From contig JAQWRY010000028.1 of assembly GCA_029243485.1 (NCBI GenBank), positions 1-64,000 of the forward strand: a DNA stretch of 64,000 nt. The letters run 5' to 3'. Below, in pieces: positions 59,901 to 63,403 of this stretch; position 1 is the first letter of the stretch; every line of letters begins with the position of its first letter. Source of the stretch: Candidatus Binatia bacterium (GTDB lineage: Bacteria > Desulfobacterota > Binatia > UBA12015). The position numbers and the translations under genes are program-made. Under the pieces are notes generated by a model. That model was not told the origin of the DNA. It did no database searches and was given only the letters and a program-made list of their open reading frames with translations.

Positions 59901-61058
59901 GGGCGTCCAGGCACGGTCGAAATCCCCAACGTACATGGCGCGGGGGCGAATCAGACGATCATCGTCGATTTGCTCGAGAACGTGGGCGGTCCATCCACCG
60001 ACACGTGCGACCGCGAACGTCGGCGAGAAGAGGTCGGCTTGGAGGCCGATGCCGTGCAGGACGAGCGCGGTATAGAACTCGACGTTTGTCTCCAGGCGAC
60101 GGTCCGGTTTCCGAAGGGCGAGGGTCGCGACAAGCTCCTTTTCGACGATACGGGCGTCGCGGTACAGGGACGCGTCCGACCGGTCGGCGAAGAGCTGTGC
60201 CGCCGCCTCGTTCAGAACCTCGGCTCGGGGATCGCGGACCTTGTAGACCCGGTGCCCGAAACCCATGATCCGATCGCCCGCGGCGATCGTCTCCTCGGCC
60301 CACTGTCGGGCTTCCACCTCGACGGTTCTCCCGGAGATCTTCGAACGCTTCTGGATCTCGAAGACCATGTCGAGTGCCGGTCCGGGTGCGCCGCCGTGGA
60401 GCGGGCCTTTGAGGGCGCCAATGGCGCCGACGACTGCTGAGGTCAGGTCGGACCGAGTGCTCACGATCACACGCGAGGAGAACGTCGAGGCGTTCATCCC
60501 GTGGTCGATCACGGTGTTGAGGTACGTCTCGAGAGCGCGGACAGCATTCTCGGCCGGGCGCTCGCCGGTCAGCATGTAGAGATAGTTGGCCGTGTGTCCG
60601 AGGCTGGAGTCCGGTTGGATCGGCTCGGCCCCGGCGCAGAGTCGCGCGTAGGCCGCGGCGAGGGTAGGGAAGGCGGCGAGCAGGGTCCGCGCACGCGAGA
60701 CGTTCGCCGCACGGGTGTCTGCGAGCGGGTCTTCTTCCACCAGGCTCAGGGTGGACGCGCCGATTCGAAGGGCATCCATAGGGTGGAGGTTTCGATCCGC
60801 GGCTCGCCTCAGGAGGAGAAGTGCCTCCGCGGGGATCTGCCGACGGCTCGACAGGTCATCGCGCAGGGCACGGTACTCGGCCTGGGTCGGCAGTCGGTCT
60901 TCCCACAGAAGGAAGACCACCTCTTCGAACGCCGCTGCCGGTGCCAGCCGTTCGACCGGGAAGCCCCCGATCGTCAGTTTCCCCGCCTCGCCGTCGACGC
61001 GGCTCGTGCGCGTCTTGGCGACGAAAATCCCTTCCAGTCCCGATACGATCTCGCTCAT
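59886..61058 (-). CDS. Citrate synthase (CitA/PrpC-like)
   Basis: 390 residues from ATG 61058, preceded by GGGAGGG. Catalytic region: GPLHGGAPG near residue 237 and GFGHRVYKVRDPR near 275 supply the two histidines; the third residue, normally Asp in NVDFY, is Glu in NVEFYTALVLHG, as in one branch of citrate synthases. It condenses acetyl-CoA (or propionyl-CoA) with oxaloacetate. It is transcribed away from an HTH-fused paralogue with which it shares a control region. A start at 61121 is possible but places the palindrome inside the gene. Confidence 0.93.
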   Translation of the reverse strand: MSEIVSGLEGIFVAKTRTSRVDGEAGKLTIGGFPVERLAPAAAFEEVVFLLWEDRLPTQAEYRALRDDLSSRRQIPAEALLLLRRAADRNLHPMDALRIGASTLSLVEEDPLADTRAANVSRARTLLAAFPTLAAAYARLCAGAEPIQPDSSLGHTANYLYMLTGERPAENAVRALETYLNTVIDHGMNASTFSSRVIVSTRSDLTSAVVGAIGALKGPLHGGAPGPALDMVFEIQKRSKISGRTVEVEARQWAEETIAAGDRIMGFGHRVYKVRDPRAEVLNEAAAQLFADRSDASLYRDARIVEKELVATLALRKPDRRLETNVEFYTALVLHGIGLQADLFSPTFAVARVGGWTAHVLEQIDDDRLIRPRAMYVGDFDRAWTPLAER

Positions 61059-61092
61059 CTCATTCCCTCCCATCGTTTCGATCTCGAGAAGA

Positions 61093-61121
61093 AATATCGA
61101 TGACTTGATGTATGTCGTCAA
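61093..61121 (-). promoter_or_regulatory. Candidate promoter of the citrate synthase gene
   Basis: On the minus strand TTGACG (61116-61121) is followed after 17 bases by GATATT (61093-61098). These match five of six -35 and four of six -10 consensus bases. Transcription would start near 61085, 27 bases before the ATG, with room for the GGGAGGG site. A palindrome lies just upstream of the -35. Confidence 0.5.
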
Positions 61122-61123
61122 TC

Positions 61124-61139
61124 TTGATTATGTAATCAA
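61124..61139. promoter_or_regulatory. Palindromic operator TTGATTA-TG-TAATCAA
   Basis: A perfect 7+7 inverted repeat with a 2-base centre, in an AT-rich island unlike the surrounding DNA. It lies upstream of the minus-strand promoter and only three bases before the ATG of the plus-strand gene. A weaker TTGA...TCAA pair lies at 61105-61121. A plus-strand -35-like TTGATG (61105-61110) and -10-like TATGTA (61129-61134) would place the start at or near the ATG, i.e. a leaderless message. The obvious binder is the HTH-citrate synthase protein encoded next to it. Confidence 0.62.
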
Positions 61140-61142
61140 TAT

Positions 61143-62378
61143 ATGGACGATCCCCAGGCGGCCCCCGGCGAGCCGACCCAGCTGACGGCCCACCAGGCGG
61201 CCACCGAACTCGGGATCAGCTTGTCGACGCTGTACGCCTATGTGAGCCGTGGCCTCATCCGATCCGAATCGGGGCCGGACGGGCGCAGTCGCCGCTATCG
61301 CACGGAAGACGTCTGGTCGCTGAAGCGGCGAAAGGACCATCGCCGCGATCCGGACAAGGCCGCGGAAGAGGCGCTGCACTGGGGGCTCCCGGTTCTGCAA
61401 TCGAGCCTCTCACTGATTTCGGACGGGCGGCTCTACTACCGGGGGCGCGACGTGGTGACGCTCGCGACCAGTTGTACGATTGAGCAGGTCGCGGCGTTGT
61501 TGTGGTCGGGGTCGGTCGACGAGCCGCTGTCGTCCGCCGAGCCGATCGACGTGGGGCAGGACGGGGCACTCCTCAAGAAGATCAAGGCGCCACTCACGCT
61601 GATGGAGATCTTCCAGGCTCAGCTCACCGTGGCCGCCGCGCATGACACGTCGGCGTTCGACGTCCGCCCACTCTCGGTGCAACGAACGGGTCTGAACATT
61701 CTGCGACTGATGGCGGCGACCGCCGCCGGTGGGAAGCCGAGCAAGCGCGGCATCGCCGAGGTGCTGCAGCGCAAATGGTGTCCGAAGCGGCCCGACGCCG
61801 TCGCGCTTCTCGATGCGGCGCTCGTGCTCTACGCTGATCACGAACTCAACCCGTCCACGTTCACCGCACGTTGTGTCGCGTCGGCGGGCGCGACGCCGTA
61901 CGGAGTCGTTCTGGCGGGACTTGCTGCGCTGCAGGGGTCGAAGCACGGTGGCGCGTGCGAGCGGGCCGAGGCACTCTTGAACGAATCGTCGAACGACCGC
62001 GTCGCGCACCGAGCGGTCGCCGCTCGTCTGCGAAGGGGCGAAGCCATGCCCGGGTTCGGCCATCCCCTGTACCCGGACGGTGATCCCCGCGGCGCATTGC
62101 TCATGGGGCTCGTTCGGGAGCGATGTGCCGGCTCGCACGGCGTGAAGGTGGCGAGCGCACTCGCCGACGCCGTGTGGGACTTGATGGGCGAGCGACCGAC
62201 GGTGGATTTCGCTCTGGTGACCCTGTGTCGCGCCTTGGAGCTTCCTTCACAGGCGCCGCTGGGGCTCCTGGCGATCGGCCGCACCGTCGGGTGGATCGCG
62301 CACGCGATCGAGCAGTACGGCGAAGGTCGCTTGATCCGGCCGCGGGCTCGCTACACGGGAGAGCCGCCCACCTCGTGA
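61143..62378 (+). CDS. Citrate synthase with N-terminal MerR-like HTH domain
   Basis: 411 residues. Residues 13-62 are a winged helix-turn-helix of MerR/excisionase type: LTAHQAATELGISLSTLYAY, then SRGLIRSESGPDGRSRRYR. The rest is a citrate synthase domain with QGSKHGGAC, GFGHPLYPDGDPR and TVDFALVTLCRALE, so the two histidines and the aspartate are all present, plus the C-terminal WIAHAIEQYGEGRLIRPRA. It could be an enzyme, a CoA-sensing regulator, or both. No Shine-Dalgarno site precedes the ATG; the operator abuts it. It is divergent from the plain citrate synthase. Confidence 0.9.
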   Translation: MDDPQAAPGEPTQLTAHQAATELGISLSTLYAYVSRGLIRSESGPDGRSRRYRTEDVWSLKRRKDHRRDPDKAAEEALHWGLPVLQSSLSLISDGRLYYRGRDVVTLATSCTIEQVAALLWSGSVDEPLSSAEPIDVGQDGALLKKIKAPLTLMEIFQAQLTVAAAHDTSAFDVRPLSVQRTGLNILRLMAATAAGGKPSKRGIAEVLQRKWCPKRPDAVALLDAALVLYADHELNPSTFTARCVASAGATPYGVVLAGLAALQGSKHGGACERAEALLNESSNDRVAHRAVAARLRRGEAMPGFGHPLYPDGDPRGALLMGLVRERCAGSHGVKVASALADAVWDLMGERPTVDFALVTLCRALELPSQAPLGLLAIGRTVGWIAHAIEQYGEGRLIRPRARYTGEPPTS

Positions 62379-62407
62379 TTCCGCGCACCCGGAAGATGGC
62401 GCCGGTG

Positions 62408-62887
62408 TCAGTGGGGGGCTGTCGTGAACGAGACGACCTCGGCGAGATGTCCGCCCGCGGAGCCGCCGGCGAGTACGATTCGAGCGGGGTCGAGGCCGAG
62501 GGCCTGGGCGTTTTCGTGCACGTACCGGTACGCGGCCCGAGCATCTTCGACGGCCGCAAACGCGGTCGTGCCGTGGGGGAGGTGAACGCGGTAGTCCACG
62601 GTGATGCCGAGCCATCCGAACGAAGCGAAGTGCTTGGCCCAAGGATGGAACTGCATCGGAGAGCCGCTCGTCCACCCGCCGCCGAAGAAAAACAAAATCG
62701 TCGGGCGAGGTGCGTCCACTACCGGCTCCGGCTCGAAGAGCTGAAGCCTGAGAGTGACGTCGTCCATGTCTCGGTAGACGAGCTCTCGCGTCGGCGCGTA
62801 CGTGAATCGGAATGAGGCTTACGCGGCGAGAGACAAGAGGCCGAGCCCCAGCGCCGTCACGAGCGCGTACCTCCCCAGTTTCCTCAT
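62408..62887 (-). pseudogene. Secreted esterase/lipase remnant
   Basis: From ATG 62887 a signal peptide reads through LGRYALVTALGLGLLSLAA, but codon 23 (62819-62821) is TAA. In the same frame after it comes FRFTYAPTRELVYRDMDDV, FFFGGGWTSGSPMQ (oxyanion hole), and VLAGGSAGGHLAEVV with nucleophile serine, then a stop soon after. The C-terminal third with catalytic Asp and His is missing. Thus there are both a nonsense codon and a 3' truncation, in a family of about 280-320 residues. A read-through artefact cannot explain both. Confidence 0.72.
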
Positions 62888-62929
62888 CGCGCGGTCACAC
62901 TGCGGTACCCCGCCCCGCGGTCTCGACGC

Positions 62930-63403
62930 TCAGACGGACCGGGCCGGCAGGCGGATCAGCGGGATGCGACGTTCGGTCTTCGCCTGGTACTCGACGTAGT
63001 AGGGGCGATCTTTGACGAGGGCGTTCCAGGTGCGCTGGTGGTCGACGCCTTCGAGGATGATCGCGGTGACGAGCCCTTCCTCGGCGCGGTCCTTTATCCA
63101 GATCTGCGGGTTGGCAGTCTTGTCGCAGAGGTTGTGGAACCAGGCGGGGTTCTTGGGACCGCCGGCGTAGGATGCGGCGACGATCCGGGTCTGGTCGGCG
63201 TCGCACCAGTACGGCAGGGCAACGGTGTGCACCTTGCCCGATTTGCGGCCTACGGTGCGCAGGAGGAGATGGCGCATCCCCGCGCGCACCCACGCGGATT
63301 CATCGTCGGTCGTCTCGAGATGTCCGACGTGGCGCCGCGTGATCGAGGGGATCTCCGCTAGGTCCGGTGTTTCGAACTCGTCGTTGCGCTGGTCTTCACT
63401 CAT
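62930..63403 (-). CDS. DDN-type deazaflavin (F420)-dependent nitroreductase family protein
   Basis: 157 residues. The F420-binding split-barrel landmarks HLLLRTVGRKSGKVHTVALPY, VAASYAGGPKNPAWFHNLC and KDRAEEGLVTAIILEG are present. These proteins reduce or oxidise quinones, nitro compounds or lipids using F420. It complements the LLM oxidoreductase at 48 kb, suggesting that the host makes F420. It stands alone between a remnant esterase and a secreted hydrolase. Confidence 0.92.
   Translation of the reverse strand: MSEDQRNDEFETPDLAEIPSITRRHVGHLETTDDESAWVRAGMRHLLLRTVGRKSGKVHTVALPYWCDADQTRIVAASYAGGPKNPAWFHNLCDKTANPQIWIKDRAEEGLVTAIILEGVDHQRTWNALVKDRPYYVEYQAKTERRIPLIRLPARSV

Follow-up and report, generated by a model that had tools for sequence, protein, structure and literature searches.

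The intergenic stretch studied here separates two divergently transcribed citrate synthase genes and lies within a window of 64,000 nucleotides, by which we mean the whole stretch of DNA that was analysed (contig JAQWRY010000028.1, Candidatus Binatia bacterium). One gene encodes a plain citrate synthase (CS), the other a CS fused to a helix-turn-helix (HTH) domain, referred to as HTH-CS in the following (Table 1). This divergent arrangement, with a MerR-like HTH in the fusion, had been recognized in a first-pass annotation, and both Pfam and the opposite strands of the genes agree with it: HTH_17/MerR_1 and Citrate_synt match the fusion, and Citrate_synt alone matches its neighbor. The plain CS gene is preceded by a Shine-Dalgarno sequence; the HTH-CS gene possesses neither such a sequence nor an in-frame start codon upstream of its ATG. 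Elsewhere in the window, at 62408–62767 on the minus strand, there is a 119-residue frame for a short alpha/beta hydrolase (BD-FAE/Abhydrolase_3), apparently a truncated esterase.

Table 1. Features of the divergent citrate synthase locus (positions refer to the window)
Feature	Position	Strand	Basis
Plain CS gene, CitA type, Glu at the catalytic Asp position (NVEF)	61058-59886	-	Pfam, tree
Shine-Dalgarno GGGAGGG of plain CS	61071-61065	-	Sequence; ATG at 61058
Intergenic stretch between both citrate synthase genes	61059-61142		
-10 GATATT of plain CS, N17 from -35	61093-61098	-	Promoter scan; relatives
-35 TTGACG of plain CS, inside predicted operator	61116-61121	-	Promoter scan; -10 spacing across relatives
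O1 palindrome, TTGAT-N7-GTCAA	61105-61121		Sequence; fourth half-site
O2, perfect palindrome TTGATTA-TG-TAATCAA (TTGAT-N6-ATCAA)	61124-61139		Sequence
Full predicted operator in the window's lineage, O1 and O2 in tandem	61105-61139		Sequence and half-site enrichment
Conserved core of predicted operator, GTCAATCTTGATTATGTAATCAA	61117-61139	+	Cross-genome comparison
Proposed -10 TGTAAT of HTH-CS, inside O2, 12 to 7 nt before ATG	61131-61136	+	-10 score peak
HTH-CS fusion gene, 411 aa, proposed regulator	61143-62378	+	Pfam, structure model, tree
Winged HTH (residues 13-68) with TLYAYVSRG as near-invariant recognition region	61179-61346	+	HTH_17, MerR_1, conservation, AlphaFold2
CS domain, H233, H268, H307, R316, D355, R380 and R399 retained	61380-62345	+	PF00285

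The perfect palindrome that had first drawn attention to this locus is indeed found three bases before the ATG of the fusion gene (61143), and it is the sole match to its sequence in the window when up to three mismatches are allowed (0.14 expected). Perfect 7-2-7 palindromes of any sequence occur 13 times in the window, so the palindrome is not significant by itself and the weight must come from comparison. The putative site is also larger than first noted: it has a longer core and a further half-site, which together make two tandem palindromes (O1 and O2). This fourth half-site, TTGAT located 7–8 nt before GTCAA, is exact in 8 of 67 non-redundant loci, while any other offset is found in two at most; the tandem form is present in the window's lineage and in a subset of its relatives.

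For the comparison, a contig scan of genomes yielded 80 loci, to which genome searches added further ones. Upstream of HTH-CS genes, GTCAATnTTGAT-N6 or N7-ATCAA recurs, often ending 1–3 nt before the ATG, and motif-bearing loci span at least five phyla, with Myxococcota, Chloroflexota, Acidobacteriota, Gemmatimonadota, and Alpha- and Betaproteobacteria among them. The pattern TTGAT-N6/7-ATCAA, taken from the window alone, is present within ~245 nt upstream in 55 of 74 non-redundant HTH-CS loci (<60% protein identity), compared with 12 of 14,800 dinucleotide-shuffled controls (0.08%). Across ~60 divergent loci, conservation drops steeply outside the element, from a near-invariant core to unconserved flanks. 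The first-pass annotation had held that its claim would fall if the motif were not conserved near orthologous pairs; this comparison was made, the motif is conserved, and the claim survived. Plasmid At of Agrobacterium fabrum C58 also carries this divergon, and its motif core is perfect. On this plasmid, the RefSeq start of the HTH-CS gene (4884) overlaps the divergent CS gene and runs through the operator; translation probably begins at the ATG that directly follows the motif. At two loci on contigs labeled Gemmatimonadota and Latescibacterota (L045/L047), HTH-CS and operator are nearly identical, which reflects either transfer or a mis-binned contig; at L047, a transposase-like gene takes the place of the partner.

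Searches starting from the motif led back to the same protein, with 57 of 63 sites located at an HTH-CS gene or operon. In 148 genomes of the same class, all eight sites are at HTH-CS; in 100 Caulobacterales, 19 of 21 are at the HTH-CS/CS pair, with one of the remaining two next to a CoA-transferase and the other near neither; and in 100 Burkholderiaceae, 30 of 34 are at an HTH-CS gene or operon, three are not and one was left unexamined. Of the six sites lacking a demonstrated HTH-CS gene, five were thus tested. In none of the three groups did a reversed-pattern control return a site. Among the Burkholderiaceae sites, seven lie ~2.9 kb upstream of a second HTH-CS gene on the same strand and head its operon (7/7 by gene search). 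Two of these seven were read out; they have a D-2-hydroxyacid dehydrogenase gene on one side and an SDR-MFS operon on the other. This placement between the dehydrogenase gene and an SDR-MFS-HTH-CS operon (L176, L184, L186, L195, L196) suggests a further catabolic target. An Alphaproteobacteria-wide search with spacing 5–6 returned five sites, none at HTH-CS, and two control sites; this spacing was the wrong pattern for the group, because alphaproteobacterial sites mostly have spacing 7. The window's own genome has a single exact site, which points to HTH-CS as a local regulator. With up to three mismatches, 12 sites are found there versus four for the reversed control, and we do not claim a regulon in this genome.

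Two divergent predicted promoters overlap this element. The -35/-10 pair that had been proposed for the plain CS gene is the sole promoter-like match in 60000–63000, where 0.2 would be expected. On the partner strand, the conserved GTCAA reads TTGAC and forms the partner's -35; across relatives, -10 sequences are enriched 16–18 nt further on. On the HTH-CS side, we considered all non-redundant loci with a start codon at most 4 nt from the operator (24 loci). Here, the -10 score peaks exactly 12 nt before the ATG, where nine loci have at least five of six matches and other positions have none or one. A -10 at this distance places the transcript start at the ATG. The suggested leaderless start is therefore supported for the window's lineage and some others, but not as a universal trait: in about a third of the non-redundant loci, the start lies >12 nt further downstream, so the leaderless start is variable between lineages. 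Judged from these predicted elements, the position of the operator relative to both promoters is conserved.

In the AlphaFold2 model of HTH-CS (mean pLDDT 88), a winged HTH (E13-15, H16-23, H27-35, E41-43, E50-53, H54-68) sits on a CS fold. The HTH scores 24.4 bits with MerR_1 (cut-off 21.6) and 27.2 with HTH_17 (cut-off 27), the fusion matches PF00285 with an E-value of 3.5e-64, and in a Foldseek search with the model, citrate and methylcitrate synthases were the best among the matches listed. Nearly all HTH-CS members keep H268, H307 and D355 as well as R316, R380 and R399, which we take to be catalytic and oxaloacetate-binding residues, respectively, from general knowledge of citrate synthases. 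The catalytic Asp is present in 106 of 108 HTH-CS proteins; among the paired plain CS, 56 of 61 have Glu at this position, as does Bacillus subtilis CitA. In the tree, HTH-CS forms one clade (92/99). It is separate from the partner CS, which rules out a recent fusion of the partner to an HTH. A second subfamily, type B, with ~39% identity was encountered in relatives from the same class (L010, L139–L148). It has the same TLYAYVSRG helix, and at these loci there is no such motif upstream and no CS partner; in two of the loci read, it has a gene for a luciferase-like monooxygenase as its neighbor.

While the regulator gene and its motif recur, the divergent partner is exchangeable. In most loci it is a CitA-like CS, and these partners form their own clade in the tree with B. 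subtilis CitA as sister. A housekeeping-type CS is the partner in three sampled loci, in two places of the tree; a CaiB/BaiF-type CoA-transferase is found in Paraburkholderia, and a hydroxyacid dehydrogenase is a further type. In Chloroflexota and some relatives from the same class, the partner is a relative of isopropylmalate and homocitrate synthases (HMGL-type; L009, L037, L039, L043, L048 and others). It matches no curated equivalog, its best NCBIfam model, NifV homocitrate synthase, being far below the cut-off, and it is a candidate for a Re-citrate synthase-like enzyme. That it could be the cell's only CS is ruled out, since a high-scoring CS is encoded elsewhere in these genomes. More generally, another, higher-scoring CS is present in all 18 genomes examined. 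This pattern, in which partners are exchanged around a constant regulator and operator, is what one would expect for a dedicated regulator rather than for paired subunits of a single enzyme, and provides a clear case of regulator-led evolution.

Given that motif and protein stay together through changes of phylum and partner gene, the comparison supports the idea that the palindrome is the operator of HTH-CS. Going by this covariation, we consider it highly probable that HTH-CS binds the predicted operator as a regulator, and very probable that it is a transcription factor with an autoregulatory role at this site. The HTH-CS proteins very probably make up a regulator family that has not been described before and in which an old enzyme fold serves to sense central metabolites; our literature search found no paper describing an HTH-citrate synthase regulator. 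We infer the following mechanism with regard to dimer binding, repression over activation, the identity of the ligand and a switch by domain closure. HTH-CS would bind the full operator as a dimer, or as a pair of dimers on the tandem palindromes, cover the divergent CS gene's -35 together with the -10 of the probably leaderless HTH-CS promoter, and so repress both. The CS domains would close on acetyl-CoA, oxaloacetate, citrate or a close analog bound in the retained active site, which would move the N-terminal HTHs and free the DNA, such that extra CS is induced when the metabolite accumulates. That the operator overlaps the -35 of the partner as well as the -10 of the fusion argues for repression, and repression of both genes is the simplest reading; it seems reasonably likely that HTH-CS acts as a repressor. 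Likewise, the retained ligand-binding residues fit the sensing of a CS substrate or product, and it is fairly probable that one of these or a close analog is the ligand. As a whole, we favor with moderate confidence a local autoregulator that uses its CS fold as a sensor, represses both promoters and is released by a CS substrate or product. Some observations count against this explanation, namely the type-B proteins with the same recognition helix but no upstream motif, the higher-scoring CS in all 18 genomes, and the six motif sites that lack a demonstrated HTH-CS gene. If it is true, a widespread family now annotated as an enzyme gains a DNA site and a genomic rule, and we would be looking at a natural metabolite-responsive switch; to our knowledge, regulators that directly read acetyl-CoA or oxaloacetate have rarely been identified in bacteria.

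The main alternative to repression of both genes is that HTH-CS represses itself while activating the divergent gene. The center of O2 (61131.5) is ~45 nt upstream of the predicted partner start (~61086), as for a class II activator, poor -10 boxes in many partner promoters would fit activation, and divergent circuits of this kind are generally known to be common, for example among LysR types. Against this, the partner's -35 coincides with the conserved half-site GTCAA, O1 spans this -35 and the spacer in the window's lineage, and the partner spacers of 16–18 bp are normal, so that unwinding as by MerR-type regulators is unneeded; we regard activation as rather unlikely. A different question is whether the sensor is still an enzyme. 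HTH-CS could be a bifunctional trigger enzyme, which makes citrate or a homolog and whose state of turnover sets DNA binding. The near-invariance of H268, H307, D355, R316, R380 and R399 and the intact CS fold in the model are in line with this, and a catalytic Asp in 106 of 108 proteins is more than a pure sensor needs and thus counts against a sensor-only reading; yet CitC of Caulobacter crescentus, a probable ortholog, failed to complement the loss of gltA in Escherichia coli (PMC7083601), and the trigger-enzyme proposal appears unlikely to us. We are similarly doubtful about its broader version, in which a catalytically competent CS would, through occupancy or turnover in the condensation reaction, set the transcription of exchangeable acyl-CoA and 2-oxo-acid enzymes in several phyla.

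The link between site and protein can be questioned from two further sides. Another regulator, for instance of the GntR type, might own the site and control the pair, with the HTH of the fusion doing something else, and it is general knowledge that many regulators use AT-rich palindromes of such length. This is quite improbable in view of a motif that stays with HTH-CS in different phyla, on plasmids and when the partner is swapped, and of loci that, where read, had no other regulator gene in common. The palindrome could also be a product of chance or promoter composition that carries no regulatory meaning, as the other perfect 7-2-7 repeats in the window and the promoter-like AT-richness of the region may recall, but the comparative data already contradict this: a core that stays near-invariant between unconserved flanks and is so rarely matched by shuffled sequence makes the idea practically untenable. 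The preferred reading of HTH-CS as a regulator at its own operator can be set beside known systems.

The first of these is MerR itself. The label 'MerR-like' is apt for the winged HTH, which exceeds the MerR_1 cut-off and is seen in the model, but not for the promoter geometry. HTH-CS lacks the dimerizing antiparallel coiled coil of MerR proteins and has two short helices followed by the CS fold in the model; its target promoters have spacers of 16–18 bp as opposed to 19–20 bp, and its predicted operator lies on the -35 and upstream of it. Promoter distortion of the MerR type is ruled out by these spacers, which are too short. The locus also resembles citA/citR of B. subtilis, in which a minor CS gene is divergent from that of its regulator, CitR. 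Both are CS-regulator divergons, and the partner in the window groups with CitA and has the same Glu for Asp; however, CitR is of the LysR type and unrelated to HTH-CS. In RefSeq, members of the same family with the same motif, such as ATU_RS25370 on pAtC58, are found as 'Citrate synthase family protein', annotated as enzymes only and with no recorded role in regulation.

One pair that is very probably of this kind has been studied genetically. C. crescentus CitB (CCNA_03757) was able to complement the gltA mutant of E. coli, unlike the neighboring CitC (CCNA_03758); their identities to B. subtilis CitA are given as 37% and 32%, respectively (PMC7083601). In Caulobacterales, we find identities to CitA of 34–38% for the partner CS and 27–35% for HTH-CS; the published values match these, and CitC is therefore probably HTH-CS. 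With adjacent locus tags, matching identities, and motif and pair being common in Caulobacterales, citB/citC is very probably the same divergon. The study treats CitC only as a non-complementing CS paralog, and a word search of its main text found no mention of a helix-turn-helix (PMC7083601). If our identification is right, a role as regulator would explain why the CS-like CitC failed to act as a CS. A parallel in design is BzdR (PMC3602430), a regulator of a metabolic promoter that, like HTH-CS, combines an N-terminal DNA-binding domain with an enzyme-derived sensor domain. HTH-CS has this one-component design, a DNA-binding domain fused to an enzyme fold, together with a predicted operator-like site at its own promoter. 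The two differ in that the sensor of BzdR, for which benzoyl-CoA is the known ligand, is a shikimate kinase-like domain that lost its kinase activity in evolution (PMC3602430), whereas HTH-CS has a CS fold and keeps the catalytic residues.
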